From: Rhodocyclaceae bacterium | GTDB lineage: Bacteria > Pseudomonadota > Gammaproteobacteria > Burkholderiales > Rhodocyclaceae | Length of the DNA stretch: 64,000 bases | NCBI GenBank assembly: GCA_028869135.1 | Contig: JAGWTC010000003.1 | Coordinates: 1 to 64,000 of the forward strand | Reading direction: 5' to 3' | Program-made: the position numbers and the translations under genes | The notes under the pieces: model-generated | What the model saw: the letters and a program-made list of their open reading frames with translations, nothing else | What the model was told of the DNA's origin: nothing | Databases searched by the model: none | Shown here: positions 17,552-35,791 of the stretch, one piece after another | How the letters are laid out: each line of letters starts with the position of its first letter | Numbering within the stretch: position 1 is the first letter of the stretch

Positions 17552-17603
17552 TTGCGCATGCGGTGAATGTCGCCCATAATCACCGCATGAATAGCGGTGA
17601 TTA
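17552..17603 (+). promoter_or_regulatory. fic promoter with overlapping inverted repeats
   Basis: TTGCGC (17552-17557) and CATAAT (17575-17580) are 17 bp apart, placing the start point at about 17587, the A of the likely ATG. CATGCGGTGA at 17558-17567 pairs with TCACCGCATG at 17580-17589. The overlapping TAATCACCGC at 17577-17586 pairs with GCGGTGATTA at 17594-17603. A repressor bound here would cover the spacer, -10 and start. Confidence 0.7.
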
Positions 17604-18936: not shown

Positions 18937-19620
18937 GTGAAGCTTCTGGTCGTCGAAGACGAACCCAAAACCGGTGATTACGTTCGGCAAGGCCTGATTG
19001 AGGCCGGGTTTATCGTCGATCTGGTTCGTGACGGTGCGGACGGTCTCCATTTGGCCTTGACCGAGGCCTACGATCTGCTAATCCTCGATGTCATGCTGCC
19101 GAAATTGAATGGTTGGCAGATCCTCGGCGGCATCCGCAAGGCGGGTAAAGACACGCCGGTGCTCTTCCTCACCGCCCGCGACGAGGTCGATGACCGGGTT
19201 CATGGCTTGGAGCTCGGCGCCGACGACTATCTGGTGAAGCCCTTTGTGTTTTCCGAATTGCTGGCGCGGGTACGCACGCTGCTACGCCGGGGAAGCAAGG
19301 TAAAGGAATCCGAAATGCTCAGGGCCGGTGATTTGGAGCTGGACCTCCTGCGCCGGCGCGTTACCCGGGCGGGGCGGCGGATTGAGCTGACGGTAAAAGA
19401 ATTTTCCTTGCTTGAACTACTCATGCGGCGCCAGGGTGAAGTCTTGCCGCGTTCTCTCATCGCCTCCCAAGTCTGGGACATGAATTTTGACAGCGACACC
19501 AACGTCATTGACGTCGCGGTGCGCCGCTTGCGGGCGAAAATTGACGATGACTTCGAACAGAAGCTGATTCATACCGCCCGAGGGATGGGCTACGTCCTTG
19601 AGGCGCCGACATGCAGCTAG
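18937..19620 (+). CDS. copR: Copper-responsive response regulator (OmpR family)
   Basis: 227 aa. The receiver domain has acidic pocket E7/D8, phosphoacceptor D51 (LLILDVMLP) and K102-type lysine in DDYLVKPF. The C-terminal winged helix ends with GMGYVLEAP, typical of CusR/CopR/PcoR. Acts in the cytoplasm to activate cop (and perhaps cus, csp, czcE) promoters. The start is GTG at 18937. It overlaps copS by 10 bp. Confidence 0.95.
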
Positions 19621-21002: not shown

Positions 21003-21005
21003 GAA

Positions 21006-21034
21006 TTGACACCTTAATCACCCTTTTCTAGACT
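21006..21034 (+). promoter_or_regulatory. Promoter for the cop operon
   Basis: TTGACA (21006-21011), a 17-bp spacer and TAGACT (21029-21034) lie between copS and the small gene at 21058. This allows the structural genes to be transcribed separately from copRS. No full CopR-like box is visible here. Confidence 0.55.
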
Positions 21035-21057
21035 CACACGACTCAACCGACACCCTC

Positions 21058-21438
21058 ATGTTTAAGCGCCTCATTCTCTGGATCATGCTGATCGCGCTGC
21101 CGCTGCAAAGCTACGCAGCCGCAGCGATGATGCATTGCGCGCCGAGACATGAGGCGGCTGCGCAAGTGTCGGTGCATCACCATGACGATAACGACGGTAT
21201 GGCGATGCACAAGCATGCGGATGACGGCGCGTCGAAGGCCTCGGGCGCACATAGCGCCGCGAACAGTAAATGCAGTGCTTGCAGCACCTGCTGCCTGGTT
21301 GGCATGGCCGCTACGAACTCGATAGCGGTGGCACCGACCTTGGACGGTACGCCGGTACTCGTCCCCCATCCTGAGCTGGCCTTGCCCAGCGTCGTACTCG
21401 AGGGCCAGAAGCGTCCCCCCCGACCCTCGATCGCTTAG
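21058..21438 (+). CDS. Small secreted His/Cys-rich protein at the head of copA
   Basis: 126 aa. A signal sequence (MFKRLILWIMLIALPLQSYA) is followed by His-rich segments (VHHHDDNDGMAMHKHADDG) and a Cys cluster (KCSACSTCC). It is 78 bp before copA. The layout mirrors the protein at 6704-7075 before cusF: both have a leader with I/LPLQ, clustered Cys and a tail lacking motifs. Likely a periplasmic copper-binding accessory, but the role is inference. Confidence 0.72.
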   Translation: MFKRLILWIMLIALPLQSYAAAAMMHCAPRHEAAAQVSVHHHDDNDGMAMHKHADDGASKASGAHSAANSKCSACSTCCLVGMAATNSIAVAPTLDGTPVLVPHPELALPSVVLEGQKRPPRPSIA

Positions 21439-21516
21439 TAAATCCGCGTGGCGGAGGTTTCCCTCCGTCCGTTTTTACCCGACAGCATCTCGCTGTCATT
21501 GCGAATCGAGGAAAAC

Positions 21517-23268
21517 ATGTCTCAGTTCTTTTTGCCGCGCCGCCGCTTTGTGCAGGGTTTGGTCGCCGGCGGCGTTATGGTCGGCCTATCGGGCCTGAAT
21601 GGCCCAACGTGGGCTAAAGCAGACCCAAAAAATACCCAGACCGGCTCGGCAGCAGTCTTGAGCGGCACCGAATTTGACCTGGTGATCGACGAGTCGATGG
21701 TCAATTTCACCGGAACCCCGCGTCTGGCCACCACCATCAACGGCACACTGCCTGGCCCCACGCTGCGCTGGCGCGAAGGCGATACCGTGACGATCCGCGT
21801 CACCAATCGATTGAATGAGCCAAGCTCGATTCACTGGCACGGCATCATCCTGCCGTTCCAGATGGACGGCGTCCCAGGCATTAGCTTCGATGGCATTCCT
21901 CCTGGCGCAACCTTCACCTACCGCTTCAAGGTAAGCCAGAGCGGTAGCTATTGGTATCACTCGCATTCCGGCATGCAGGAGCTGACCGGGATGTACGGCG
22001 GCATCATCATTGATCCTGCCGACAGCGCTAAAGACATTCGCGCTGACCGTGACTACACAGTTCTGCTCTCGGACTGGAGCGACGAAGATCCGATGCGAAT
22101 CCTGTCCAAGCTCATGGTGCAAGGCGACTACTACAACTACAACAAGCCGACAGTTGTCGATTTCTTCCGGGACGTTGCGCAAAACGGCGTGAAGCGTGCA
22201 ATGGACAAGCGCAAGATGTGGAACGAGATGCGCATGAGCCCGACGGACCTGGCGGATGTCTCCGGGGCCACGCTGACTTACCTCGTCAATGGCGTAACGC
22301 CGGCAGGCAACTGGATGGGCCAATTCAAACCGGGCGAAAAGGTACGTCTGCGCTTCATCAACGGTGCAGCCCATACCTTCTTCGACGTACGTATCCCGGG
22401 CCTAAAGCTCAAGGTTGTCCAGGTGGATGGCCAGAATATTGAGCCTGTGAGCGTTGACGATTTCCGCTTCGGCCCGGGCGAAACCTACGATGTGCTCGTC
22501 GAACCCAAGGATGACGCATACACCCTGTTCGCGCAGAGCATGGACCGGAGTGGTTATGCCCGTGGCACCCTGGCCGTCAAAGAAGGCCTGACTGCCCCCG
22601 TACCAGCTCTCGACAAAGTGGAGTGGCTGTCCATGAGCGACATGATGGGCAGTATGGGGGGCATGGGCGGAATGGGTGATATGGGCGGTATGGATGGAAT
22701 GGAAGGCATGAGCGGCATGAATGATGATCCGCTCAAGACCCCAAGTGCCACCGTCCGCCATGCCCGTACCGAGTATGGCGCTACCACCGATATGCGCGTG
22801 GACATGCCGCGCAACAACCTCGATGATCCAGGTGTCGGGCTCCGTAACAACGGCCGCCGGGTTTTAACGTTGGCGGACCTGCACACCATTGGTGGCCCGA
22901 TGGACCAGCGCGGCCCCAGCCGAGAGGTCGAACTTCACTTGACCGGAAATATGGAACGGTATGCCTGGTCCATGGACGGGGTGTCGTTTTCCGACTCGAC
23001 GCCCGTGCATTTCCGCCGCGGCGAACGCGTCCGTGTCATTCTGCACAATGACACGATGATGACGCATCCCATGCACATGCATGGTCTATGGAGCGAACTG
23101 GAAACACCCGAAGGGGAATTCCTCGCACGCCGCCATACGATCCCGGTTCAACCGGCACAACGCGTTAGTTTCCTTGTTACCGCAGATGCGCTCGGTCGCT
23201 GGGCATGGCACTGCCATCTCATGTTCCATATGGAAATGGGCATGTTCCGTGAGGTCGTCGTCGCATGA
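21517..23268 (+). CDS. copA: CopA/PcoA-type multicopper oxidase
   Basis: 583 aa. A twin-arginine leader (RRRFVQGLVAGGVMVGL) means folded export to the periplasm. Copper-site motifs are HWHG near the N-terminus, WYHSHSG, and C-terminal HPMHMHG and HCHLMFHMEMG. A Met/Gly repeat (MGSMGGMGGMGDMGG and onward, encoded at 22646-22720) is the Met-rich copper-loading loop. It oxidises Cu(I) to the less toxic Cu(II). GAGGAAAAC precedes the ATG at 21517; a longer frame from 21448 lacks this and would bury the Tat signal. Confidence 0.95.
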   Translation: MSQFFLPRRRFVQGLVAGGVMVGLSGLNGPTWAKADPKNTQTGSAAVLSGTEFDLVIDESMVNFTGTPRLATTINGTLPGPTLRWREGDTVTIRVTNRLNEPSSIHWHGIILPFQMDGVPGISFDGIPPGATFTYRFKVSQSGSYWYHSHSGMQELTGMYGGIIIDPADSAKDIRADRDYTVLLSDWSDEDPMRILSKLMVQGDYYNYNKPTVVDFFRDVAQNGVKRAMDKRKMWNEMRMSPTDLADVSGATLTYLVNGVTPAGNWMGQFKPGEKVRLRFINGAAHTFFDVRIPGLKLKVVQVDGQNIEPVSVDDFRFGPGETYDVLVEPKDDAYTLFAQSMDRSGYARGTLAVKEGLTAPVPALDKVEWLSMSDMMGSMGGMGGMGDMGGMDGMEGMSGMNDDPLKTPSATVRHARTEYGATTDMRVDMPRNNLDDPGVGLRNNGRRVLTLADLHTIGGPMDQRGPSREVELHLTGNMERYAWSMDGVSFSDSTPVHFRRGERVRVILHNDTMMTHPMHMHGLWSELETPEGEFLARRHTIPVQPAQRVSFLVTADALGRWAWHCHLMFHMEMGMFREVVVA

Positions 23269-23279
23269 GGAATCCAAAA

Positions 23280-24230
23280 ATGAAAAATCACCTGATGACC
23301 ATCATCGTTGCAGCGTTCGCGACGACTGGCGCTTCACTCGCCATGGCCCAAGAGATGGATCACAGCAAGATGGACCATGGCGCTATGGATCACAGTGCTA
23401 TGAACCATGACTCGATGGATCACGGTTCCATGGACCACGGAGCTATGGATCACGGCTCCATGAATATGGACATGAACATGCAAGGCGGCGCCGCGCCGCC
23501 CGATGCACGGGATCCGAATACCTATTCGAATGGTTACACCCTTCATAGCGGCGCATATGCACTGCCCGGTGGCCACGAAGCCATGGAGATGGGCGATGCC
23601 AAGAACTTCGCCGCGTTGCTGGTTGATCGCCTCGAGCGCAGCCATTCCAGTCAAAGCAATGCCACCGCTTACGAGCTGCAAGCCTGGTACGGCTCTGCAT
23701 TTAACAAGCTGACGCTCAAGGCCGAAGGTGAAGTGGCGGATAGCCGTGTCGAGGAGGCTCGGACTGAGCTGCTCTGGAGCCGCGCCTTTGCAACCTTCTG
23801 GGATACGCAGGTCGGCGTTCGAAACGACACAGGACATGACACTGCATCACGCAACTGGCTTGCCTTCGGCGTGCAGGGCCTGGCGCCGTATTGGTTTGAG
23901 GTCGATGCCACGGCGTATGTAGGACAGCACGGCCGTACCGCATTGCGCTTGTCAGCGGAGTACGAGCTTTTGCTGACGCAACGCCTGATTTTGCAACCTC
24001 GCATTGAGGCAAACCTCTACGGCAAGGAAGACACCGAAGCGGAAGTTGGGCGCGGGCTCTCCAATGGCACTGCTGGCTTGCGTCTGCGCTACGAGTTCAG
24101 CCGCCAGTTTGCGCCCTATATCGGCGTCGAGCGTCAACAGTATTTCGGCGATAGCGCCGACTTTGTTCAGGCGGCAGGTGGTCGGCGTGGTGAAACCCGT
24201 GTCGTCGCCGGTGTCCGTCTGTGGTTCTAA
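23280..24230 (+). CDS. copB: CopB/PcoB outer-membrane copper protein
   Basis: 316 aa from the ATG at 23280, which has GAGGA about 10 nt upstream; an in-frame ATG at 23265 overlapping the copA stop is the alternative. A signal peptide (to MAMAQ) is followed by repeats of the form MDHSKMDHGAM that bind copper, then a CopB beta-barrel ending with Phe (GVRLWF), as outer-membrane proteins do. It probably sequesters or exports copper at the outer membrane together with CopA. Confidence 0.94.
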   Translation: MKNHLMTIIVAAFATTGASLAMAQEMDHSKMDHGAMDHSAMNHDSMDHGSMDHGAMDHGSMNMDMNMQGGAAPPDARDPNTYSNGYTLHSGAYALPGGHEAMEMGDAKNFAALLVDRLERSHSSQSNATAYELQAWYGSAFNKLTLKAEGEVADSRVEEARTELLWSRAFATFWDTQVGVRNDTGHDTASRNWLAFGVQGLAPYWFEVDATAYVGQHGRTALRLSAEYELLLTQRLILQPRIEANLYGKEDTEAEVGRGLSNGTAGLRLRYEFSRQFAPYIGVERQQYFGDSADFVQAAGGRRGETRVVAGVRLWF

Positions 24231-24260
24231 ATTTTTCCCCAACCTAACAGGAGTTTCATC

Positions 24261-24644
24261 ATGAAAACGATCAATAACGCTTACCTCCGTAACACCATCG
24301 CCGGCCTCTGCGCGATGGTGAGTGCGGCTGCCTTCGCCCACCCGAAGCTGGTGTCCTCGACCCCGGCAGACCAATCAACTGGCGCGGCGCCGGCCAAGAT
24401 TGAGCTGCATTTCAATGAGGATCTGGTGACCCAGTTCTCCGGCGCAAAACTCACCATGACCAGCATGCCGGGCATGGACATGCCGATGAAAATGCCCGTT
24501 AAGGTCTCGCCGGGTGACGATGCTAAGACCATGGTCCTGACGCCTACCAGCCCGCTGCCGGCCGGTGGCTATCGTGTGGATTGGCGTGCCGTGTCCTCTG
24601 ACACCCACCCGATTACCGGCAATTTCTCCTTCACCGTGAAATAA
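24261..24644 (+). CDS. copC: CopC-type periplasmic copper carrier
   Basis: 127 aa. The signal peptide ends at AAAFA, leaving the mature N-terminal His (HPKLVSSTP) that ligates Cu(II) in CopC. The MPGMDMPMKMP loop is the Met-rich Cu(I) site, and DTHPITG supplies further His. It is followed 8 bp later by copD, its usual inner-membrane partner for copper uptake. AGGAG precedes the ATG. Confidence 0.95.
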   Translation: MKTINNAYLRNTIAGLCAMVSAAAFAHPKLVSSTPADQSTGAAPAKIELHFNEDLVTQFSGAKLTMTSMPGMDMPMKMPVKVSPGDDAKTMVLTPTSPLPAGGYRVDWRAVSSDTHPITGNFSFTVK

Positions 24645-24652
24645 GGCCAGAC

Positions 24653-25543
24653 ATGGATTTCGCCAGCACGCTCATACGTCTGGGGTTGTATCTCGATCTG
24701 GGCATCCTGTTCGGCCTGGCGTTCTTTGCCATGTACGCATTAAGCCCAGATGAGATGGCAACACCGTTCGGCAGGCGCTTGCGCTCGTGTGTAACCACCT
24801 TTGCAACACTCGGCATTGCTTTGTCCCTGCTGAATGTTGTGGTGATGGCCAAAAACATGAGTGGTGCGGACAGCTATGCCGAGATAGAGATGCACATGCT
24901 CAGCATGATTGTCAGTGGTACGGACTTCGGGCTGGCTTGGATTTGGCGGATGACAGCTTTGCTGGCTTGCCTAGGCTTTGTTTGGACAACCAAGTCTGGC
25001 CGGAGCACTTTCCTGTGCATTGGCGCCGGCGTGGCTATGGCCACGCTGGCCTGGGCCGGACATGCGGTGATGGATACTGGCATGCTGCGCTATGAGCACT
25101 TGGGTGTCGATATCGCACATTTACTGGCCGCCGCGACTTGGGCTGGGGCGCTGACCGCCTTCTTGATGTTGTCCCGAAACGTTTCGTCGGCGGCTTTGTT
25201 CAGTCGTACTACCAATGGATTTGCCCAGATTGGGTCGATTCTTGTCGGAGTGTTGGTGGTCACAGGTGCAATCAACTATTGGTTGATCGTGGGGCCGAAG
25301 CTGGCTGACAGCCTCTATGGTCTACTACTGCTTGTAAAGCTCGCACTGTTTGGGCTCATGCTAGGCCTGGCTGCTATCAATCGCTTCCGCCTTGCACCTA
25401 AGCTTGAGGCCGCGGTATCCCGTGGGGATCGTGAAGAAGCCATGCTTGCGTTGCGTCGTAGCATTGTCATCGAAGCCAGTGCAGCGACGCTCATTTTCGC
25501 GTTCGTGGCCTATCTAGGCTTGCAATCACCGAGCTCCGTTTAA
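24653..25543 (+). CDS. copD: CopD-type copper transport membrane protein
   Basis: 296 aa with about eight hydrophobic helices. Conserved His-containing segments include HAVMDTGM and HLLAAATWAGAL. It belongs to the CopD/YebZ family, which works with CopC to bring copper into the cytoplasm, probably for supply or sensing. The start follows copC by 8 bp, so both are in one transcript. Confidence 0.92.
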   Translation: MDFASTLIRLGLYLDLGILFGLAFFAMYALSPDEMATPFGRRLRSCVTTFATLGIALSLLNVVVMAKNMSGADSYAEIEMHMLSMIVSGTDFGLAWIWRMTALLACLGFVWTTKSGRSTFLCIGAGVAMATLAWAGHAVMDTGMLRYEHLGVDIAHLLAAATWAGALTAFLMLSRNVSSAALFSRTTNGFAQIGSILVGVLVVTGAINYWLIVGPKLADSLYGLLLLVKLALFGLMLGLAAINRFRLAPKLEAAVSRGDREEAMLALRRSIVIEASAATLIFAFVAYLGLQSPSSV

Positions 25544-25597
25544 GCAAAGCCTTCTGGTAGTGCTTATTTATAACGTTTCACACATTTGGACCGTACG

Positions 25598-26032
25598 ATG
25601 AAAAGACTGCTTGCTCCTCTCTCCTTGGTGCTTTCTATCGCTACGCCTGCTTGGGCAGAGGGTGGTGGCATCGTGGAGGTCTATAAGACGCCGAACTGTG
25701 GATGCTGTGCGAAATGGGTCCAGCACTTGCAGAAGGCTGGCTTTACCGTAAACACACATGACGTCGGTAACGTTACGCCAACCCGAGAAAAGCTTGGCAT
25801 GCCCGAAAGCTACGCTTCTTGCCATACCGCCAAGGTAGGCGGTTACGTCGTTGAGGGACATGTTCCGGCCGAAGATATCAAGCGCTTGCTCAAAGAACGG
25901 CCCGTGGCTATCGGCTTAGCGGCGCCTGGGATGCCGCAGGGTTCTCCCGGTATGGAAACCGCAACGCCAGCACCGTACGACACCTTATTAATTAAGCGCA
26001 ACGGTAGCTCTTCTGTTTATGCTCGGCACTGA
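25598..26032 (+). CDS. DUF411 (CopG-like) periplasmic copper protein
   Basis: 144 aa from the ATG at 25598 (an in-frame TTG at 25586 is less likely). A signal peptide ends at PAWAEG. The CxCC motif in YKTPNCGCCAKW and a later Cys/His (SYASCHTAKVGGY) are the DUF411 signature. Family members called CopG sit in cop operons and bind several Cu(I) ions with redox activity. The C-terminal 30 residues are Met/Pro-rich. It is 54 bp after copD. Confidence 0.88.
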   Translation: MKRLLAPLSLVLSIATPAWAEGGGIVEVYKTPNCGCCAKWVQHLQKAGFTVNTHDVGNVTPTREKLGMPESYASCHTAKVGGYVVEGHVPAEDIKRLLKERPVAIGLAAPGMPQGSPGMETATPAPYDTLLIKRNGSSSVYARH

Positions 26033-26115
26033 AGGCGAGCATGGTCCATTCGGCAAAAATGATGTGACACTGACATTGCGTTACCTCCAGGAAACCTAGC
26101 GAATCAGGAGTCGAT

Positions 26116-28482
26116 ATGCCTCACGACAATCATGCCGCACATGGCCATGGTGCTCACCATCACGCAGCGCACGACCATGGCGTTTCACCCCCAGATGGAT
26201 TAAAGGATCCGGTTTGCGGCATGAGCGTCACTGAGAACTCGGCGTTCCAGACACGTCATGGCGGCAAAACCTATTATTTCTGCAGCGAGAAGTGCCAGCA
26301 CAAATTTTCCGCCAATCCCAACCAATATACGTCTCAGGCAAATCCCTCGGCAGAAGAGGCATTCAAGGCTGATGCCGCACCTGGAACCATCTATACCTGC
26401 CCGATGCATCCTGAGATTCGTCAGGATAAACCGGGCAACTGTCCAAAATGCGGGATGACACTGGAGCCGCTATTGCCAGAGCTTGAGGAAGAAGAAAATC
26501 CTGAGCTCAAGGACTTCCAGCGCCGTTTCAGGTGGACGCTGCCGCTAACCCTCATCGTTTTTGTGCTTGCCATGTTCGGCCACCGCCTGCAGTGGATGGA
26601 TATGACGGTTCAAAGCTGGGTCGAGCTGGTACTTGGCACGCCGGTCGTGCTGTGGGCGGGCTGGCCTTTTTTCTCGCGGGGCTGGCAGTCGGTCGTTCAT
26701 CGCAACCCCAATATGTGGACACTGATCGGCCTTGGTACAGGTGCCGCCTATGTGTACAGCGTCGTCGCCACGGTAGCACCAAACGTATTTCCCCAGTCGT
26801 TCGTCTCCATGGGGCGCGTTGCCGTCTACTTTGAGGCTGCCGTCGTCATCATCTCCCTCACCTTGCTTGGTCAGGTGCTGGAGCTAAAGGCACGTTCGCA
26901 AACTTCGGCGGCGATCCGCGCACTGCTCGGCTTGGCACCTAAGACCGCCCGCCGCATTCGTGAAGATGGAGCGGAAGAAGACGTACCGCTGGCACACATC
27001 CACGTCGGCGATCTGCTGCGCATCCGTCCAGGCGAAAAGGTACCCGTCGACGGTGCCGTCGTCGAGGGCAATAGCGCCGTCGATGAGTCCATGTTGACCG
27101 GGGAGCCAATCCCTGTCACCAAGCGAGTCGGCGACAAGGTTATCGGCGCTACGCTCAATACGAGCGGCGCCCTGGTGATGCAATCCGAGCGCGTCGGTGC
27201 TGCCACCATGCTAGCACAGATTGTGCAGATGGTGGCTCAGGCACAGCGTTCCAAGGCGCCCATGCAGCGTCTTGCCGATGTCGTCGCTGGCTATTTCGTC
27301 ATGGTCGTTGTCGCCATTGCTATGGTGACACTCTTGGTTTGGGGAATCTGGGGTCCGGAGCCAAGCTGGGTATATGGCCTGATCAACGCCGTTGCGGTGC
27401 TCATCATCGCTTGCCCCTGCGCGCTGGGTCTCGCCACGCCGATGTCCATCATGGTCGCGACTGGCAAAGGCGCGACGCACGGCGTGCTGTTCAGGGATGC
27501 AGCCGCCATCGAGAATTTACGCAAAGTCACGACCCTGATCGTGGACAAGACCGGAACGCTCACCGAAGGCCGTCCAGCCTTTGACCGTGTCGTTCCGGCT
27601 GCCGGCTACGCCGAACTGGACGTCTTGCGGTTTGCCGCTAGTCTTGATCAGGGCAGCGAGCACCCTTTGGCAGACGCCATCGTGCAGGCAGCTCGAGTCC
27701 GCAATTTGAATCTGGCCCAGGCCGAAGAGTTCGAGTCCTCGTCCGGTATAGGCGTACGTGGTCGAGTCGAAGGCAAACACCTAGCGCTGGGTAATACCGT
27801 CTTGATGGAGCAGCATGGCGTAGATGTCGCGCCCTTGGTACCGCAAGCCGAGCAATTGCGCGGCGAAGGCGCCAGCGTCATATATCTCGCCATTGATGGT
27901 GCTTTGGCCGGTCTTTTGGCCGTATCCGATCCGGTCAAAAAGAGCACTCCGGAGGCGCTGGAGACGCTGAGGCAATCTGGCTTACGCATTGTTATGGCGA
28001 CAGGCGACGGAGAAACGACCGCGAAAGCCGTCGGCGCCCGTCTAGGTATCCAGGAAGTCCATGGTGAGGTCAAGCCGGCGGACAAGCTGCAACTGGTGGA
28101 ACGCCTACAGAAGGAAGGACAGGTCGTCGCCATGGCTGGCGATGGCATCAACGATGCGCCGGCGCTGGCTAAGGCTGACGTCGGCGTCGCCATGGGTACG
28201 GGCACCGATGTCGCCATGAACAGTGCCCAGGTCACCCTCGTCAAGGGCGACCTGCGCGGTATCGCAACGGCTCGTCGTCTGTCAGAGGCCACGATCCGTA
28301 ACATGCGTCAAAACCTGATGTTCGCCTTCCTCTACAACGCACTTGGCATTCCGATCGCCGCCGGCATTCTCTATCCGGTGACAGGCTGGTTGCTATCGCC
28401 ATTGATTGCAGCCCTGGCGATGAGCCTCAGCTCAGCATCGGTGATAGCGAATGCATTGCGTTTGCGCAGTGGCGAAGCTTAG
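26116..28482 (+). CDS. copF: Copper-exporting P1B-type ATPase
   Basis: 788 aa. The His-rich N-terminus ([20 protein letters not shown]) precedes a YHS domain (DPVCGMSV ... YYFCSEKC) and a heavy-metal-binding segment (YTCPMHPEI ... CPKCGM). The core has CPC at C433-P434-C435, phosphorylation site D477 (DKTGT), HP motif (EHPLA) and hinge [10 protein letters not shown], with eight membrane helices. It pumps Cu(I) from cytoplasm to periplasm at the cost of ATP. No CxxC HMA domain is present; the YHS/HMBD pair replaces it. AGGAG precedes the ATG. Confidence 0.95.
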
Positions 28483-28581
28483 AACCGAGCCTACGCATTT
28501 ACGTAGACTCATCTCATCCACTGACGTCGGCAAGGTATGCAGTTTGCATCGTTTTGGGCTCCACTCAACCAGGAGAATCTC

Positions 28582-28959
28582 ATGAACGGAAACAATGTAC
28601 TTCGTAAGTCAGCGGCAGGCGTCGGTCTGATGGCGGCACTACTGTGTGCCAGTGTCGGCAACGTCGCGTTCGCCCAATCGTCGGCCGACCAGCATCATGC
28701 CAAGGACGACAGCGGCATGACGATAGACAGCGCCATGCAAGGAATGCGACAGCGCATGGACGGAATGAAGATGACCGGCGATACCGACAAGGATTTTGTG
28801 ACAATGATGCGGTCGCATCACCAAAGCGGCATCGACATGGCCAAGGCCGAACTGGCGAACGGCAAGGATGCAGAGGCTAAGAAAATGGCGCGCAAGATCA
28901 TCGATGCCCAAACGAAGGAAATCGCCGGGTTCGATAAATGGCTTAAGAATCATCCGTGA
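28582..28959 (+). CDS. DUF305 (CopM-like) secreted protein
   Basis: 125 aa from the ATG at 28582, which follows CCAGGAG; a frame from 28537 is less likely. A signal peptide (to AFAQS) precedes a DUF305 domain with the conserved MMRSHHQSGIDMAKAEL and MARKIIDAQTKEIAGF. The Met/His pattern (SAMQGMRQRMDGMKM) fits Cu(I)/Ag(I) binding as shown for CopM of cyanobacteria. It is 99 bp after the ATPase gene and probably ends the cop operon. Confidence 0.88.
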   Translation: MNGNNVLRKSAAGVGLMAALLCASVGNVAFAQSSADQHHAKDDSGMTIDSAMQGMRQRMDGMKMTGDTDKDFVTMMRSHHQSGIDMAKAELANGKDAEAKKMARKIIDAQTKEIAGFDKWLKNHP

Positions 28960-29097: not shown

Positions 29098-30375
29098 CTA
29101 AATCAGCCGGATGCGCTTGGAGTGTTCGACTACATCACTCAGGTTGTAATTCTTGGCAGGCCGACGCAGTCGACCATCGGCGTTGCAGACGATGATGTCC
29201 TGCGACTGGTGGAGCACCTTCAGTGCCTCAAGATAGTGTTGCGTGGAGCCAGGGGATCGGCTAGCCGACTGATAGACCAATTCCCTGACGGTAATCGGCT
29301 GTCCTAAACCCGTCACGACTTGGCCAAGGTGCTCATGAATCCCTTCGATACAGCGCTGCCGTGAATCGGGCCCGAAATCAAACGGAGATTGCTGCGTGTA
29401 ACAATCATCCTTGTTGGCGTCGTACCCCTGCATGAACACACCGGGCTCCAGTTCGTGCCCAAATTCGGTGGCATGGTCCCAGTGCAGGTCCTTCATGACC
29501 TCATGCGCTTTGTAGTGATTCGACAGATGGATCAACCAGTAGTCCCAGGTGTTGCTTCCCAGCGGCCGGACAAAGAAGAGTGTGGCGAACTGCGCACCGG
29601 TTTCGGTCTTGATGCCATGGGCAACATGCCGCTGCAGAATTTGTCGCCAGCGCTGTGAGTCGGTCGCCTTGAGCGTGGCAATCTGATCCCAGGGAATGTG
29701 TTTTTCCAGACCAATCCGGGCCATCGGCTTACGATTGGCCGCATGGTCGGAAATATAGGTCAGGAGCGAACCTACATTGAAGGTGAGGATGATTTCGCTA
29801 CCTTTTAGGTCTCTCATGAGACCGGCCATCTCGGCCATGGGCAGATCATTGTAGTTGTATTGGTCGAGAACAAAAATGGCCCGCTCGCCGAACTTTCGTT
29901 GCTTGATCTCGGCCCGGATGCGCGGCAATTCGCTGAGGAAGTCTGCGCAACGCACAGAAGTGCGCTGTTTATCCTCCAGGTCAATGGCGTTTTCATCGGC
30001 GCGGCCGTTGAGCCAGTAGTTCAGATAGTCGATTGTCTTCGACTCGATATCGATGAAATCGTAATTCACGCTTATCTCGCGCGGCTTGTTGCGCCCGAGA
30101 TTGAGAAGTGCGCGGGCTTCGCGGACTGCTCGCATCATCAACAGGGGTGAGCCATCCACCAAGGCCTTCGTGTCTTCCTCTTCATAACAGCCGCCCCCGC
30201 TGAAGCCGTCGACCAACGTTAGCTGCAATTTCGGGATGTGGGCCTGCGACATCAAGGTCTGGATGTAGTTGCGAACATAGTTCTCAATGATCCGGTGCTT
30301 GACCGCACTATGTTGCTCCAGTACGGGTGGAGGCGAACCTATCTCCCAGATGTACTTGTTTTCTTTTTTGGCCAT
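29098..30375 (-). CDS. tcmP: Three-Cys-motif partner protein TcmP
   Basis: 425 aa with a segment LTLVDGFSGGGCYEEE near residue 55, resembling the SAM-binding or nuclease-like start of TcmP proteins, and FVLDQYNYNDLP further on. The family is named for pairing with DUF5131/Gp37-Gp68 proteins, which carry a three-Cys motif; exactly such a gene is 6 bp upstream. The C-terminal 70 residues look like a winged helix (ITVRELVYQSASRSPGST). The biological role of the pair is not established, and defence or DNA/RNA modification has been suggested by context only. Confidence 0.82.
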   Translation of the reverse strand: MAKKENKYIWEIGSPPPVLEQHSAVKHRIIENYVRNYIQTLMSQAHIPKLQLTLVDGFSGGGCYEEEDTKALVDGSPLLMMRAVREARALLNLGRNKPREISVNYDFIDIESKTIDYLNYWLNGRADENAIDLEDKQRTSVRCADFLSELPRIRAEIKQRKFGERAIFVLDQYNYNDLPMAEMAGLMRDLKGSEIILTFNVGSLLTYISDHAANRKPMARIGLEKHIPWDQIATLKATDSQRWRQILQRHVAHGIKTETGAQFATLFFVRPLGSNTWDYWLIHLSNHYKAHEVMKDLHWDHATEFGHELEPGVFMQGYDANKDDCYTQQSPFDFGPDSRQRCIEGIHEHLGQVVTGLGQPITVRELVYQSASRSPGSTQHYLEALKVLHQSQDIIVCNADGRLRRPAKNYNLSDVVEHSKRIRLI

Positions 30376-30381
30376 CGCCGG

Positions 30382-31128
30382 TCAGGCTCCCAAGGCTTGC
30401 GCAGGCATTTCATCCCATGTGCGGCCGTGCAACTCGCGACCGTTGTGTTTCTTGGCGCGTTTTACGCCGTCTGCACCCCAGCCACCCCATTGCTTGAAGA
30501 AGAAGGCAACCCCGGCATCCTCGCACTGTGCCCGGATTGAGTCGACCCATTCGATCTTCATCGGTCGGGCCTTGGGCCCGGATTCGCCACCGACGATGAC
30601 CCAGTGGATATGGTCCAGATTGAGGAGGCCTACATCTTCCAGCAGCGGCTCGACGGACAGGAAACGGATAGCGGCATTCACCTTGCGCAGGTGATCAATA
30701 CGCGGCACGCCGTATTTTTTGTCTTCAACCGACACCCCAAGCCAGGCGTTTGCCGGTGCCTTTTTCGTGCGAAAAATCTCGGCCATGCGATCAGCCCGCT
30801 TGGTGAGAATCTGGAAGGTATGCCAATGCGCCTGCTCGATAATGTCGAAGACCTGTTTGATGTACTCAGTCGGTACATCCTCATGAAAGAGGTCGGACAT
30901 GGAGTTCACAAAGTAGGTGGTCGGCGTCTTGCGCAGCAACGGGTCCCGCAGACGTTGCGGCAAGAGCGTGAGCTCGAAGCCGTTCTCGTAGCCCGGCGTT
31001 CGCATTGCCTGCAGGCGACCAGCCATGCCCTCGGCATAGCAGTGCTTGCAGCCAGGTGAGATTTTGGTGCACCCGACAGTAGGGTTCCAGGTACGCTCGG
31101 TCCATTCAATCTTGCTAACGGTAGTCAT
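30382..31128 (-). CDS. DUF5131 (phage Gp37/Gp68 family) three-Cys-motif protein
   Basis: 248 aa. The N-terminus has the three-Cys motif C-x7-C-x2-C in VGCTKISPGCKHCYAE with SKIEWTERTWNPT before it, and VIVGGESGPKARPM later, all typical of PF07505. The fold is likely a TIM-barrel related to radical-SAM or photoproduct-lyase-like enzymes, with the Cys binding a metal cluster. It overlaps the RHH gene by 4 bp and is 6 bp before tcmP. The enzymatic reaction is unknown. Confidence 0.88.
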   Translation of the reverse strand: MTTVSKIEWTERTWNPTVGCTKISPGCKHCYAEGMAGRLQAMRTPGYENGFELTLLPQRLRDPLLRKTPTTYFVNSMSDLFHEDVPTEYIKQVFDIIEQAHWHTFQILTKRADRMAEIFRTKKAPANAWLGVSVEDKKYGVPRIDHLRKVNAAIRFLSVEPLLEDVGLLNLDHIHWVIVGGESGPKARPMKIEWVDSIRAQCEDAGVAFFFKQWGGWGADGVKRAKKHNGRELHGRTWDEMPAQALGA

Positions 31129-31349
31129 AGGTCGCCTTTCCCGTGAGTGTGCTGTTCATCCTGCAATTTGGCAATTGCCATTTCAATGACTGCCGATTGG
31201 CCCAATGACAGCTCTGCGCACAAAGTCTGCAATTGATCAGCCGCATGTGCGGATAACCAAGTTTGGAGACGGTGATCGCCAGCCTCGCGCCTTCGTGCGC
31301 GAAAGCCACGCTGGGCGCTGGAAATCTGCTCTTGGCGCTTTTGGGTCAT
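31125..31349 (-). CDS. Small ribbon-helix-helix-like regulator
   Basis: 74 aa. A basic N-terminus (QRGFRARRREAGDHR) is followed by RLQTWLSAHAADQLQTLC and LSLGQSAVIEMAIAKL, which fit the strand-helix-helix of RHH/Arc-type repressors. It overlaps the DUF5131 start by 4 bp. A perfect 17-bp palindrome lies over its own promoter, so autorepression of the three-gene cassette is likely. The ATG at 31349 is only 5 nt from the -10, so the message is probably leaderless. Confidence 0.7.
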   Translation of the reverse strand: MTQKRQEQISSAQRGFRARRREAGDHRLQTWLSAHAADQLQTLCAELSLGQSAVIEMAIAKLQDEQHTHGKGDL

Positions 31350-31354
31350 TGCAA

Positions 31355-31381
31355 AGTATATGTTTGATTACAGTGTAATCA
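31355..31381 (-). promoter_or_regulatory. Promoter and operator of the RHH-DUF5131-tcmP cassette
   Basis: On the minus strand TATACT (31355-31360) serves as -10. TGATTACA-C-TGTAATCA, a perfect 17-bp palindrome at 31365-31381, occupies the spacer and -35 region. The -35 itself is weak, leaving the promoter open to tight repression. Confidence 0.65.
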
Positions 31382-31558: not shown

Positions 31559-32590
31559 ATGGCACGAGGCGGCATCTACAAATCCGAGGTAATCCGGGCG
31601 CGTACTACGTTACTTTCGCGCGGCATCTATCCATCCATTGATTCGGTTCGGCAAGAGCTGGGCAATACCGGCTCGAAGGCCACCATTCATCGCTTTCTGA
31701 AGGAAATCGAGGAAGAGGAAGGTGGCAAGACCGGAGGCAAAGTGGCCATCAGTGAAGCCCTCCAGGACCTCGTGGCACGGCTGGCCGAACGCCTCATTCA
31801 GGAAGGGGAAGGCCGGATCACTGAATTGGTCGCCAAACATGCGGAAGAGCTGGACAAGCTCCAGCAGGCATTGAGCGCGGCCCAAGCCCATAGCACCGCC
31901 GTGGAGAACGAGCTTTTGGAAGCGACGTCAGAGGTGGTGCAGGAGCAGAAAAATCATGAACGCACCGCGGAGCGGCTTCGCGTCGAAAGCCTGGCTTTAG
32001 CCAAGGTGAGGCAGCAGGTCACCGATCTGGAGGAGCGCTTGGCAGAGCAGGAAACGCATCGGCAATCCTTGGAGGAAAAACATGCGCATGCGCGTGAAGC
32101 GCTTGAGCACTTCCGGACCGCGGCCAAGGAACAGCGTGAACAAGATCTACGGCAGCACGAACAGCAGGTGCAGTATCTACAAGGGGAGATCAAGACACTC
32201 AAGGGCAGTTTGACCCAAGCGCAGTTGGCGGCGGCCGACAGCAACAAAGAAAACGCTCGACTGGTAGGGGAGCTTTCGCGGGCAGAGCGATCGCTGCATG
32301 ACGCGAAGGCCGAGCTGAGAGCACTACAAGGTGTGCAAACCGAGCTCGGATCCGCGCAGCATCAAGTAGAGCGCCTTGGACGGCAGGTTGTCGAGCTTGA
32401 GGCGCAGGTCGCCGAACAGAAAAGCCGCAATCAGACCCTGGAAAGCGCTCGCGCGAAGGATCAGACCCAGATTCAGGAATTGAGAATCGAGCTGGGCGCG
32501 GCCAGAGCGGCAGTTGAGGCCCAAACCCAACTCACGGACAAAATTCAATCGTGGTTAAAGCCGAACCCACCGGCGCCGGTGGCGGGTTGA
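31559..32590 (+). CDS. tnpT: TnpT/KfrA-like coiled-coil DNA-binding protein
   Basis: 343 aa. The N-terminal KfrA DNA-binding domain (ARGGIYKSEVIRARTTLLSRG, GNTGSKATIHRFLKEIE, given in parts) covers about 1-60. From about 70 to 325 it is one continuous coiled coil rich in Glu, Gln, Arg and Leu. TnpT of Tn4651 has this build and helps TnpS resolve cointegrates. GGAGG precedes the ATG. Its position near the right transposon end but 15.2 kb from tnpS is unlike Tn4651, where the two are neighbours. A plasmid-type KfrA is the alternative reading. Confidence 0.8.
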   Translation: MARGGIYKSEVIRARTTLLSRGIYPSIDSVRQELGNTGSKATIHRFLKEIEEEEGGKTGGKVAISEALQDLVARLAERLIQEGEGRITELVAKHAEELDKLQQALSAAQAHSTAVENELLEATSEVVQEQKNHERTAERLRVESLALAKVRQQVTDLEERLAEQETHRQSLEEKHAHAREALEHFRTAAKEQREQDLRQHEQQVQYLQGEIKTLKGSLTQAQLAAADSNKENARLVGELSRAERSLHDAKAELRALQGVQTELGSAQHQVERLGRQVVELEAQVAEQKSRNQTLESARAKDQTQIQELRIELGAARAAVEAQTQLTDKIQSWLKPNPPAPVAG

Positions 32591-32715: not shown

Positions 32716-33702
32716 GTGGACAAACCATTCATCCGAACTGCACAGGATTTACGAAAGTTACCGAACTACTTAGAGTCGGTTGATCCTCAAGCGCAGCCAT
32801 TATCCAAAATCCTAGTTGGTTATTTTCTTGAGACCGAACATTTGTGCGGCCTCAAAAGCTGTCACCAGCCGCATAAGGAAGGGTTTCTGGTCGAGCTTGA
32901 AAATGGCAAGCTAACCAACGTCGGCTGGAAATGTGGCGAACGATTCGGGGATAGGTTTGCGCTGGAGCGAACCAAGTACGCTGAGCGTGAGTTGCGACCC
33001 AAAGCCATTCGCACAATTCAGGATGCGATGGCCAAAATTCGAGCGATGAAGGAAGAGCTTGCGACGCTTGCATCTGATGCCGATCGTCTCAGCCAGTGCA
33101 AGCAGGGAATGCGCAATCAGTTGCCCAAACTCTATAAAGAGTTAGACCGCCGCGCCCATAGCGGGAATGCCCAAGTTGTCGAGCAAGTTGAGCGTACGAA
33201 ACAAGAGATCGACAACCTTTACGAAATGAACCCTGGAGCCGGCCGCGAACGCTTCCGTTACCGTGAGGAGGCTCGCGGCATATTGCCTGGCCTACATGTC
33301 ATTTCGGACAATATCCGTGAAAACGTGATCGTCCAGTTGACTGGCAAGGCCGAGACGTTGCTGACCGCTGACATCGGGCCGCTCTCTACCGATAAGTTAT
33401 TGGACTGGGAGCGGTGGGCGCTTCGGTTCGATAGCATGGTAGAGCGTGCTCATGCCACGGTGAAGGGTGGCACTCAGCTATTTTCACCGGAGAGTTTCCG
33501 GCTGATGTCGTATCTCACAACCGTCCATACGGAGCGGAGCGCGTTATCGAAACTGACCTCTGAAGCGTTGCTGAAGGATGTGGCGGCTCCTAAGGATGCC
33601 GGCAAACCGACGGCCGAACCACTCAAGCTGTCCAAGAAGCAACAGGACATTCAGAAGAGGCTAGAGGCGACCCTTAGAAATGCAAAGCGCCTTGGTTATT
33701 AG
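32716..33702 (+). CDS. Unrecognised protein with putative zinc-binding Cys/His segment
   Basis: 328 aa from a GTG start; GAGG lies 11 nt upstream. Residues of about 40-80 contain Cys and His spaced as in a zinc ribbon (EHLCGLKSCHQPH ... GWKCGERFG). A helical, charged middle (LRPKAIRTIQDAMAKI, EQVERTKQEIDNLY) and Lys-rich C-terminus (SKKQQDIQKRLEATLRNAKRLGY in part: KKQQDIQKRLEATL) follow. No membrane segment or signal. It sits between tnpT and the right transposon end. The Cys segment and charge suggest nucleic-acid binding; no family is recognised. Confidence 0.7.
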   Translation: MDKPFIRTAQDLRKLPNYLESVDPQAQPLSKILVGYFLETEHLCGLKSCHQPHKEGFLVELENGKLTNVGWKCGERFGDRFALERTKYAERELRPKAIRTIQDAMAKIRAMKEELATLASDADRLSQCKQGMRNQLPKLYKELDRRAHSGNAQVVEQVERTKQEIDNLYEMNPGAGRERFRYREEARGILPGLHVISDNIRENVIVQLTGKAETLLTADIGPLSTDKLLDWERWALRFDSMVERAHATVKGGTQLFSPESFRLMSYLTTVHTERSALSKLTSEALLKDVAAPKDAGKPTAEPLKLSKKQQDIQKRLEATLRNAKRLGY

Positions 33703-33747
33703 CGTTTCCTGGCTGGATATCGGGTCAGGATGGCTAGTTTGTCGGCC

Positions 33748-33820
33748 GCAAAGGCGCGTGGTTAAGCGGAATTTAAGCTAACCGCCAAAATCTGCACGAA
33801 AAGTACGGCAACCCTAGGAT
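33748..33820 (-). repeat. Inner right terminal-repeat copy (diverged)
   Basis: A 73-bp sequence whose reverse complement begins GGGTTGCCGTACTTTTCGTG and continues GGCGGTTAGCTTAAA. It is repeated 89 bp further right at 33837-33906. It differs from the left end at more positions than the outer copy does, so it may belong to a different, related element or be a leftover of an earlier end. Confidence 0.7.
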
Positions 33821-33836
33821 GGCACGGTTGGTGACT

Positions 33837-33906
33837 GCAAAGGCACGTGGTTAAGCGGAATTTCAGCTAACCGCCAAATTCAGCACGAAAAGTACGGGAA
33901 TCCTAT
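33837..33906 (-). repeat. Outer right terminal inverted repeat
   Basis: Its reverse complement starts ATAGGATTCCCGTACTTTTC and matches the left end at 172 with about two mismatches over the first 43 bp. With the left end it bounds a 33.7-kb segment. Immediately outside, base composition drops to very AT-rich (33907-33960) before the chromosomal stress cluster. The gap 33703-34057 contains only these repeats, the AT-rich stretch and the sigma-54 promoter of the next gene. Confidence 0.75.
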
Positions 33907-33988
33907 TTCTTGTTTATGCTTTTATTTTACATAATATACATTATACGTACTTAAACATTTACTAAACATTCCTCCAGCGCGGCTTCCC

Positions 33989-34004
33989 GGGACCGGGGAT
34001 TGCA
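33989..34004 (+). promoter_or_regulatory. Sigma-54 promoter of the outer-membrane barrel gene
   Basis: GGGACCGGGGATTGCA has the -24 GG and -12 GC ten bases apart and a full TTGCA. Against TGGCACG-N4-TTGCA it mismatches at positions 1, 4 and 5. It lies 54 bp before the start at 34058. Confidence 0.65.
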
Positions 34005-34057
34005 TTGGCGGCCCTGTCTGTGTCTGTCATAGACGATCCGACCACAAAGGAGAAGGC

Positions 34058-34648
34058 ATGAACCATCGACATCTCATCAAATATCTCAGCCTGACTGCCA
34101 TGCTGGCCCCGCTGGCTGGCTTTGCGCAGACCGCGCCAAACAATCAGGCACAAGGCAAATCGTGGTTGCCATATACCTACAATGGGTACTGGGGCGTCAA
34201 TCTCGGGGCGCCGGATTATGAGAAGCACTGCGCCGCCGGCTTTGGCTGCAACGATCCGGATGTCGGTGGAAAAATCTATATCGGTGGTCAGTTCAATCAA
34301 TGGCTAGGTGCGGAAATCGGCTATATCAATGTCGGCAAGTTTGATCGCAACGGTGGCGATACCACCGCTCAGGGCGTCAATATCAGCCTCGTCGGCACCG
34401 TTCCCGTCAATAATGTCTTCAGCGTCTTTGGCAAGGTCGGCACTACCTATGGCTGGACCAAGACCGAAGGCGCGATTGCGCCTACCGGAAAGAAGGATGA
34501 TTTCGGGCTCAGCTACGGCGCCGGCTTGGGTTTCAATCTGTCCCCGCAGACGCAACTGCTGGTCGAGTGGGACCGCCACAACTTCAAGTTCGTGGACGAC
34601 AGGGCCGATGTAGATATGTACTCCGTCGGTTTGAAGGTCCGCTTCTAG
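34058..34648 (+). CDS. Outer-membrane beta-barrel protein
   Basis: 196 aa. A signal peptide (MNHRHLIKYLSLTAMLAPLAGFAQ) is followed by alternating strands (YWGVNLGAPDY, KIYIGGQFNQWLGAEIGYINVG, quoted in part) and a C-terminal Phe (YSVGLKVRF), typical of eight-stranded OmpA-like/OmpX barrels. Two Cys (KHCAAGFGCND) may form a loop disulphide. GGAG precedes the ATG. Likely an envelope-stress surface protein of the sigma-54 cluster. The stop overlaps that of the convergent gene within CTAG. Confidence 0.8.
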   Translation: MNHRHLIKYLSLTAMLAPLAGFAQTAPNNQAQGKSWLPYTYNGYWGVNLGAPDYEKHCAAGFGCNDPDVGGKIYIGGQFNQWLGAEIGYINVGKFDRNGGDTTAQGVNISLVGTVPVNNVFSVFGKVGTTYGWTKTEGAIAPTGKKDDFGLSYGAGLGFNLSPQTQLLVEWDRHNFKFVDDRADVDMYSVGLKVRF

Positions 34649-35046
34649 CGGTTGTAATCCTCCGGCGGCTTCAGCATCTGCTCGGCGCGGCTGGCAGTCG
34701 ATTTGCGATCGATCCCGGCCGCCGGCACCTCGCCGCCCGGAGAGTCCTCGGGGCCGGGGCCGGGTGCGGGAACGTCGGATGGAATGCCGCGCCGCTCGCT
34801 GTCCCGCAGGCCGCGCGTGATATCGCTGGCGGCCTGTTCGATGACCTGCCTGGGCAATGGGCCGCTCGATACATCAACGTCCCGGCCGGGCTTGGGAGCT
34901 TCATCATGTTCATGCGGCAGACGCAAATCGCCTTCATTTGACGGGCGCGCCGGATCAAGGTCTTCAGGCGTTGCGCCCTGCCTGTCCAGAGCCCGGCTCT
35001 TTTGCCGGTCCGCAGAGGGGCTTCCGGTAGCGGCTTCTTTTCTCAC
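34645..35046 (-). CDS. Hypothetical hydrophilic, Pro/Asp-rich protein
   Basis: 133 aa from a GTG at 35046 with GAGGGG 7 nt upstream, ten bp after the preceding membrane protein's stop; a longer frame to 35136 runs into that gene and is rejected. The composition is disordered-like (DRQKSRALDRQGATPEDLDP, PAPGPGPEDSPGG). The middle has a short helix (LPRQVIEQAASDITRGL). Third gene of a leftward operon with the genes at 35838 and 35057. No family is recognised. Confidence 0.6.
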   Translation of the reverse strand: MRKEAATGSPSADRQKSRALDRQGATPEDLDPARPSNEGDLRLPHEHDEAPKPGRDVDVSSGPLPRQVIEQAASDITRGLRDSERRGIPSDVPAPGPGPEDSPGGEVPAAGIDRKSTASRAEQMLKPPEDYNR

Positions 35047-35056
35047 TGCGCGCCCC

Positions 35057-35791
35057 TCAGGCAATATGGGTGACCCGGCGATGCAACACACGCCGCGATC
35101 CATGGATGCCCACCGCGCCACCCGCCAAGGCCGCAACGAGGGACAGAGCGATGCTGAGCGTCAACCAGATACTGACCATGGTGGCGGTGTGCAGGGTTTC
35201 CTGCGCCGCCGCCCGACCGCGCTCATCAGCTTCATTGCCCCGCCCGCTCAACGCCAGTCCCTGATCAATCAGTTGCTGCGCCTGCTCGTTGGAGAGCCCA
35301 AGGCTGCGCTGCAGCGCATCAACGGCTTCCTGTCGATTGCCGCGATCAAGATTGCCGATGACCTGGGCGCTATCCTGAACGGTGCGCCCCTGCAGCGAAG
35401 GGAAGATGGCCTCGAAAGTGGCGCCGGTAACCGAGCTGGCCAGAAATACCCCCAATAGCAAGGTCATTCCCCAGGCTGCGGCGCCATGCAGGATGCCGTC
35501 GAAGCCGCGTCGCAGGCCACTGCCCCGTGCCGCGATGTAGCCGCCGATGAAGGCTGAAATGATCATGGTCAGACTGTTCCACAATGAAGCGACGACGGGA
35601 AAGCTCTGCCCCGTGCCTGTCTCGCCGAAATCGAAGAAGCTCAAGCCTGCGGCAGTGCCCAGCAACATCAACAGCATATTGCTCGCAATGCCGACGGCAA
35701 GCCCCGCGAAAATGGCGCTCCACCGCACATTGAGGAAAGCTGAGCGCGGCAGCATGGCCGCGGCGTTGGTCTCCGTGATTTCAAGTTGCAT
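35057..35791 (-). CDS. Inner-membrane protein of a stress operon
   Basis: 244 aa. About four hydrophobic segments: 24-50 (WSAIFAGLAVGIASNMLLML), 68-92, 100-128 and 205-232. A soluble region between the last two contains LGLSNEQAQQLIDQGLAL. The VRWSAIFAGLAVG start resembles small membrane proteins common in Proteobacteria next to stress genes (annotated as PhnA-like or general membrane proteins). No catalytic motif is seen. It follows the lipoprotein gene by 46 bp. Confidence 0.72.
   Translation of the reverse strand: MQLEITETNAAAMLPRSAFLNVRWSAIFAGLAVGIASNMLLMLLGTAAGLSFFDFGETGTGQSFPVVASLWNSLTMIISAFIGGYIAARGSGLRRGFDGILHGAAAWGMTLLLGVFLASSVTGATFEAIFPSLQGRTVQDSAQVIGNLDRGNRQEAVDALQRSLGLSNEQAQQLIDQGLALSGRGNEADERGRAAAQETLHTATMVSIWLTLSIALSLVAALAGGAVGIHGSRRVLHRRVTHIA

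Follow-up and report, generated by a model that had tools for sequence, protein, structure and literature searches.

According to PMC3742179, spore photoproduct lyase (SPL; SplB, PF20903) of Bacillus subtilis binds its cluster through cysteines C91, C95 and C98 and very likely uses C141 to donate hydrogen, and the tyrosine Y99, which follows the third cysteine, takes part in the radical relay. SplB-like radical S-adenosylmethionine (radical-SAM) genes are also tied to SOS components, in operons with ImuB-C, according to an excerpt of PMC3765255. A second point of comparison is RlmJ, the 23S rRNA A2030 N6-methyltransferase, and a third is provided by PDC-M30 and PDC-M41, paired models that the PADLOC collection holds as defence candidates without a mechanism. 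Here we compare these systems with a three-gene cassette at 29098-31381 of a 64,000-nucleotide stretch, hereafter the window, from a Rhodocyclaceae bacterium (GenBank assembly GCA_028869135.1, contig JAGWTC010000003.1, positions 1 to 64,000, forward strand). The cassette encodes a small ribbon-helix-helix (RHH)-like protein, a DUF5131 protein and its partner TcmP. It belongs to a known, uncharacterised pair, DUF5131-TcmP, for whose function no describing paper appeared among those listed in searches of the open-access PMC literature; the new part is the version with an RHH gene and operator, together with the exchange of SOS-type switches among relatives. We propose that the cassette directs radical-SAM and methyltransferase chemistry to DNA, most likely as a damage-induced system for the direct repair of damaged bases, a reading that we hold tentatively and place a little short of an even chance.

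The cassette comprises the following features.

29098-30375, minus strand: TcmP (three-Cys-motif partner protein), 425 residues, TIGR04474, predicted RlmJ-like methyltransferase fold
29173-29427, minus strand: C-terminal winged helix of TcmP (residues 317-401, PF22560 GMT-wHTH), presumed DNA contact
30382-31128, minus strand: DUF5131 protein (phage Gp37/Gp68 family), 248 residues, PF07505, predicted SPL-like radical-SAM fold
31036-31071, minus strand: CX6CX2C-Y motif of DUF5131 (C20, C27, C30, Y31), presumed [4Fe-4S] site
31125-31349, minus strand: small RHH-like regulator, 74 residues, taken from the list of open reading frames (ORFs)
31365-31381, no strand assigned: 17-bp palindrome TGATTACAGTGTAATCA, presumed operator

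An earlier, sequence-only reading of this DNA had described the three genes as tightly packed and had named two of them, and on both counts it was accurate: the RHH-like ORF and the DUF5131 gene overlap by exactly 4 bp (31125-31128), the gap between the DUF5131 and tcmP genes is exactly 6 bp (30376-30381), and the two larger proteins match PF07505 at 364 bits (cut-off 28.9) and TIGR04474 at 211 bits (cut-off 53). These adjacent matches, both over curated cut-offs, make the locus a member of the DUF5131-TcmP pair. The winged helix of TcmP scores 36.9 bits against a cut-off of 27. The RHH label fared less well, as the small upstream ORF is present but its assignment was made by eye, and family profile scans of the 74-residue product found no Pfam or NCBIfam-type family over cut-off. 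By tblastn, this ORF has relatives in 6 of 80 related loci, and a looser cluster of small upstream genes covers 6 loci.

The fold of the DUF5131 protein provides the first indication of its chemistry. An AlphaFold2 (AF2) model with a predicted local distance difference test score (pLDDT) of 92.9 and a predicted template modelling score of 0.90 was compared with solved structures, and the first six Foldseek matches were all SPL (E 1.2e-4 to 2.1e-3; next match E 1.3e-2). SPL likewise occupied ranks 1-6 of the VIA comparison (Z 13.8-14.1; best match Z 14.1, root-mean-square deviation (rmsd) 2.9, 196 aligned residues), followed by viperin (Z 11.4), RlmN (10.9) and lipoyl synthase (10.4), and rows 1-35 for this predicted model were all radical-SAM enzymes (Z 8.6-14.1). 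DUF5131 is thus a predicted radical-SAM enzyme whose closest solved fold is SPL. Its motif conservation was examined in an alignment of the window protein with those of 27 of the 80 genome loci and 23 of 51 viral loci (L156, L160, L161 and L164, the last with a stop codon, were left out; L and H numbers are our labels for loci and for hit-table rows). The three cysteines of the CX6CX2C motif and the tyrosine that follows them (C20, C27, C30 and Y31) are invariant in all 51 sequences, as are D79, T109-K110-R111, S158, E160, P161, E182 and R188. The spacing differs from the classical CX3CX2C found in SPL, whereas the tyrosine is shared with it: the residue after the third cysteine, taken by pattern, is tyrosine in 8 of 10 SPL sequences (two lack the pattern), serine in 6 of 12 RlmN sequences (six lack it) and aspartate in 7 of 11 LipA sequences (four lack it).

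At the level of sequence, no similarity to SPL was detected. A Pfam scan of DUF5131 returned only PF07505 and GP88, the SPL family PF20903 being unmatched; a PF20903 search of the bacterium's own genome found no match, and a sequence search of the PDB found no significant match to either the DUF5131 or the TcmP family. DUF5131 also differs from SPL in keeping a methyltransferase-like partner gene.

Predicting the structure of TcmP, a step that the sequence-only reading had suggested, gave an AF2 model with pLDDT 84.6, whose best PDB match is RlmJ (6qe5, Z 17.6, rmsd 3.0, 217 aligned residues). In an alignment of the window protein with those of 51 of 68 loci that have a full-length TcmP, the residues D56, F58, G60, G62, D171, Q172 and Y175 are invariant in all 52 sequences. 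The glycine-rich motif I is kept, as in RlmJ, and motif IV reads DQY, followed mostly by GY. Motif IV of N6-methyltransferases, RlmJ included, is DPPY. TcmP further differs from RlmJ in its extra C-terminal winged helix, a candidate DNA-binding element.

The pairing of the two families, which had been put forward as a recognised association, holds across relatives. A TcmP-family ORF lies within 300 nucleotides of DUF5131 in 78 of 80 close genome loci, and 55 of these 80 loci contain two different TcmP clusters (58 if split genes are counted); one representative of each of the extra-neighbour clusters c3, c4 and c5 passes the TcmP cut-off of 53, at 98.7, 184.5 and 143.2 bits, respectively. In the window, tblastn with clusters c3-c5 found no second TcmP. 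Of 274 genomes sampled from the class, 28 contain DUF5131 (the bacterium's own included, a few matches being fragments only), and a TcmP-family gene is nearby in 17 of 20 class-wide neighbourhoods, three of them weak (41-45 bits); these 20 are what is left of the other 27 DUF5131-bearing genomes once weak or fragmentary matches are set aside. DUF5131 relatives are also common on mobile DNA, being found in 404 of 72,556 records for plasmids and 161 of 50,697 for phages, and TcmP accompanies them in 29 of 51 viral loci, some of which are cut by contig ends. Across 68 loci, those with similar DUF5131 proteins tend to have similar TcmP proteins (Mantel correlation of identities, r 0.635, p 0.001), which gives no support to the idea that partners are often exchanged within the main TcmP clade. 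TcmP is the more variable of the two (mean identity 0.43 vs 0.74).

Several further observations on these relatives can be recorded. In Methyloversatilis universalis EHg5 (L002:8741-10184; DUF5131 97% identical), a 1.2-kb insertion with a 386-residue ORF interrupts tcmP and leaves DUF5131 intact, amounting to a natural knock-out of the partner. Sinorhizobium meliloti 2011 pSymA (L247:5815-9049) has DUF5131 with two TcmP-family genes. In 17 of 51 viral loci (L123-L148), an Xre-like regulator motif, identified by pattern, stands directly upstream of DUF5131, and many of these loci have a convergent TcmP-family gene close to the contig end. Three records of the phage collection named for the green alga Tetraselmis hold a DUF5131 relative.

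The switch upstream of the pair is what varies among relatives. In 38 of 80 close loci, the gene immediately before DUF5131 on its strand encodes an S24 autopeptidase, and 44 of 80 have such a gene within 2.6 kb (including L007, with a weak 34-bit match); none was found in 20 control regions (two of them shorter than 3.3 kb) drawn from other genomes of the class. The S24 proteins fall into two sets. The first, of 19 proteins, has a conserved N-terminal segment, GEPTKT.RVP, that looks RHH-like by eye and precedes a UmuD-like S24 domain, and the one N-terminally extended protein tested exceeds the NCBIfam UmuD cut-off (129.5 > 110). The second comprises 26 others, mostly with a LexA-like N-terminus; the three tested match TIGR00498 over nearly their full length, below its cut-off. 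The autocleavage residues (AG, Ser, Lys) are invariant in 19 of 19 and 26 of 26 aligned proteins. The cassette and its S24 gene have umuC (IMS + DUF4113) as a neighbour in L025, L061 and L074 (3 of 80). Relatives thus keep the DUF5131-TcmP pair and swap the switch between a small RHH protein, a UmuD-type repressor and a LexA-like one. As in the SplB-like operons excerpted in PMC3765255, a gene with a predicted photolyase-like radical-SAM fold is tied to SOS components, although there the partners are ImuB-C and here they are S24 repressors or umuDC.

Several palindromes upstream of the cassettes sort by regulator type (81 loci). The perfect 17-bp palindrome that had been placed over the window's cassette promoter is present as described, TGATTACA-G-TGTAATCA at 31365-31381, with perfect 8-bp arms around one base, 15 bases upstream of the RHH-like start codon. 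We searched for it in 242 sequences (2,551,532 bases, mostly DUF5131 loci, some overlapping): TGATTACANTGTAATCA occurs at 9 places, which represent 8 distinct loci since one is a duplicate (L001, a copy of the window). These loci, the window, L002, L004, L014, L024, L039, L041 and L066, all carry it directly upstream of small-RHH cassettes, and it was found nowhere else in the set. Because it is so confined, the palindrome is probably the operator of the small RHH-like protein, and since it is kept across different genera, autoregulation is the natural, if putative, reading. TGATTT(C/T)GTNAC(A/G)AAATCA has 13 occurrences, all directly before UmuD-type S24 genes (13 of 19 such genes), and TGTACG(A/T)2CGTACA has 6, all before LexA-type S24 genes (6 of 23), the remaining LexA-type genes having other palindromes or none. 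A promoter scan placed no minus-strand sigma-70-type site at the window palindrome; the region gave 1 site against 1.7 expected. The claim of a regulated promoter in a mobile setting stands.

Taken together, the fold of DUF5131, the regulators and the alternative partners considered below have DNA as their common denominator, and for this reason we favor DNA as the substrate. In the proposed mechanism, DUF5131, as a [4Fe-4S] radical-SAM enzyme, would make a 5'-deoxyadenosyl radical and use it for hydrogen-abstraction chemistry on a pyrimidine base; TcmP, perhaps in complex with it, would bind DNA and present or methylate the target base, thereby guiding DUF5131; and the small RHH-like protein would repress the operon from the 17-bp palindrome. 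The cassette would then serve to repair damaged bases in DNA directly and would be switched on by DNA damage. We consider damage-induced repair the most likely outcome because in many close relatives the pair stands under repressors of LexA or UmuD type that have the autocleavage residues.

Several results weigh against this proposal. The window itself has no S24 match, its own RHH-like regulator lacking an S24 domain; an S24 gene is present in only 1 of the 20 class-wide DUF5131 neighbourhoods, and one tight group of relatives accounts for 19 of the S24 genes. Classical LexA boxes are lacking: CTGTN8ACAG is absent from positions -300 to +30 of all 81 cassettes, the window's included (0 exact, 0.21 expected), and sites with one mismatch occur about as often as chance predicts (7 loci vs 7.7 sites expected). 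On the enzymatic side, the SPL hydrogen donor C141 is not clearly kept, DUF5131 having no fourth invariant cysteine (the only other common one is position 202, cysteine in 45 of 51 sequences). Comparison of DUF5131 with SPL, RlmN and LipA by hhalign and hmmsearch gave no match, a result that is uninformative for DUF5131 and SPL because the control, RlmN against LipA, failed too. Methyl transfer by TcmP is uncertain, given a motif IV of DQY rather than DPPY. In many phages and actinobacterial plasmids, DUF5131 and TcmP are convergent and form no operon. To these we add the way in which two of the plasmids with alternative partners were picked and the defence genes near some relatives, both described below.

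The alternative partners also bear on a different use of the same chemistry, DNA hypermodification, in which the methyltransferase would mark a base and the SPL-like enzyme would elaborate it, shielding mobile DNA from restriction or marking self. DUF5131's partner is indeed usually methyltransferase-like, either of the TcmP family or a DNA cytosine-C5 methyltransferase, and four TcmP-less relatives have the latter near DUF5131. On plasmids of Burkholderia plantarii and Nocardia farcinica, the C5-methyltransferase gene overlaps DUF5131 by 4 bp; on a Vogesella plasmid, such genes lie nearby on both sides; and on viral contig L163, one lies downstream. All four proteins tested exceed the PF00145 cut-off, and the B. 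plantarii pair sits among conjugative-transfer genes, a setting that, like the plasmid and phage carriage of DUF5131 noted above, suits this alternative. The B. plantarii and N. farcinica plasmids were, however, picked since 2 of 40 hit-table rows named a C5-methyltransferase (H134 and H148); of H138 and H142, chosen without such a hint, one has it. Of 24 loci scanned, some 20 lacked a TcmP match; the only ones to show a C5-methyltransferase were L248 (B. plantarii) and, judged by motif, L163. Methyltransferase-like motifs of other kinds occur in L147, L150, L154 and L200, and the remaining loci have none. A Streptomyces plasmid has neither TcmP nor a C5-methyltransferase annotated and contains RusA and SSB genes. 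Since few scanned TcmP-less loci have one, the C5-methyltransferase link is suggestive and not general. Hypermodification must also contend with the absence of any constant restriction endonuclease partner among the loci seen, with LexA/UmuD-type control, which is unexpected for constitutive self-marking, and with the non-canonical motif IV of TcmP, and we regard it as somewhat unlikely.

What the repair proposal and hypermodification share can be put more broadly: DUF5131 with a DNA-methyltransferase-like partner, whether TcmP or a C5-methyltransferase, may constitute a two-enzyme radical route on DNA pyrimidines, under exchangeable repressors (RHH, UmuD-type, LexA-like) and serving repair or hypermodification on mobile elements. 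This generalization is possible, though we would place it clearly below even. It would matter for families that are common on plasmids and phages and have no sequence-detectable solved structure, and the SPL-like fold, the LexA/UmuD-type switches and the DNA methyltransferase partner in some relatives give what was an unexplained 'defence candidate' a specific, testable hypothesis: two proteins acting together in radical-SAM chemistry on DNA.

Defence is a function that the sequence-only reading had raised, describing a candidate defence or modification system in a setting typical of anti-phage or addiction modules. The first part finds independent but weak support, from PADLOC and from some neighbourhoods. 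Both proteins match paired models (DUF5131: PDC-M41B, E 5.9e-113, and PDC-M30B, E 8.4e-113; TcmP: PDC-M30A, E 5.4e-21, and PDC-M41A, E 4.1e-6), so that the A and B components of these entries are both present, while the small RHH gene matched no PADLOC model. In PMC10855318, PDC-M30 and PDC-M41 are described as not experimentally validated, and PDC-M30 is reported in 32 of 100 Pseudomonas aeruginosa strains, of which 68.8% were phage resistant; an excerpt of PMC12445080 lists the S. meliloti TcmP SMa2243 with the Hna defence gene SMa2245.

To the neighbourhoods themselves we applied the same models at E up to 1e-15, on 140 of 220 neighbour proteins and 140 of 222 control proteins, the control regions coming from the same genomes. 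Among the best 25 of 101 families, the neighbours gave mad2 (3), type I methyltransferase (2) and AriA (2), with one each of GajA, DarG, a type IIG enzyme, a CBASS phospholipase effector and a DinG-like protein; among the best 25 of 65 families, the controls gave type I specificity (2), mad2 (2), Cmr6 (1) and PDC-M37B (1). Matches near DUF5131 are somewhat more varied than in controls, but the counts are small, the comparison coarse and the enrichment modest. Pfam, run on the neighbours only, also identified housekeeping and Mu-like phage genes. With one member of each cluster tested, a type ISP restriction enzyme cluster is found at L025, L059 and L074 and an MmeI-like cluster at L034, L035, L038 and L071, and McrC, or DUF262 with an EcoRI-type methyltransferase, adjoins the pair in 2 of 5 plasmid records and in 0 of 3 further ones. 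Some islands are thus defence-like, the DUF5131-TcmP pair itself being a defence candidate. Many phages carry the DUF5131 gene themselves, and the three cassette proteins matched no nuclease, NTPase or toxin domain. Anti-phage defence, possibly damage-induced or abortive, is in our view unlikely.

The suggestion of an addiction module found no support, as none of the three genes matched a toxin or antitoxin family (E up to 1), leaving a toxin-antitoxin reading without domain support. Of the earlier labels, 'modification system' came nearer than 'defence or addiction', as the SPL-like fold, the S24 switches, umuC and the C5-methyltransferases point to DNA. RNA modification, with TcmP acting like RlmJ and DUF5131 like RlmN on rRNA or tRNA, would fit the best fold match of TcmP and the presence of RlmN among those of DUF5131, but SPL clearly outscores RlmN, the scattered spread in the class is unlike that of a housekeeping function and a DNA methyltransferase serves as alternative partner, making it improbable.

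The remaining features concern the mobile setting of the cassette.

9342-12272, plus strand: Tn3-family transposase TnpA (PF01526, 308 bits)
15352-16365, minus strand: TnpS-like tyrosine recombinase (PF00589; 52.5% identical to pCAR1 TnpS over 299 residues)
31559-32590, plus strand: divergent KfrA/TnpT-like gene (PF11740 KfrA_N, 83 bits; 38% identical to pCAR1 TnpT, 247 residues)

The cassette had been placed on a transposon, and this is plausible: the copper genes and the cassette are flanked by these three genes, but no convincing pair of terminal inverted repeats was found among the 25 longest of 37 between 5000 and 40000. The tnpA, tnpS and tnpT set of a Tn4651-type Tn3 transposon is present, with the TnpT-like gene at 38% only. 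Where Tn3-family elements carry both TnpS and TnpT, their genes point away from each other on either side of the resolution site, according to PMC7157771. The Tn4651-type elements on the Pseudomonas plasmids pCAR1 and pF046 share with the window the TnpT-like gene, the TnpS-like gene and the DUF5131-TcmP pair; there the order is TnpT-like, TnpS-like, DUF5131, TcmP, the TnpS-like gene directly preceding DUF5131, whereas in the window it is about 13 kb off and the RHH gene takes its place.

A copper-resistance block (18937-28959) adjoins the cassette, with CusRS-like proteins, a multicopper oxidase, CopB, CopD, a P-type ATPase and a CopM-like gene that falls below cut-off. Between the TnpS-like gene and this block lies a Fic/DOC protein (17563-18720; PF02661 with DUF4172). 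Downstream of the KfrA/TnpT-like gene, a 328-residue protein (32716-33702) has no Pfam family over cut-off, and at about 33000-35500 the G+C content climbs from 0.52 to 0.64, likely the right edge of the island.

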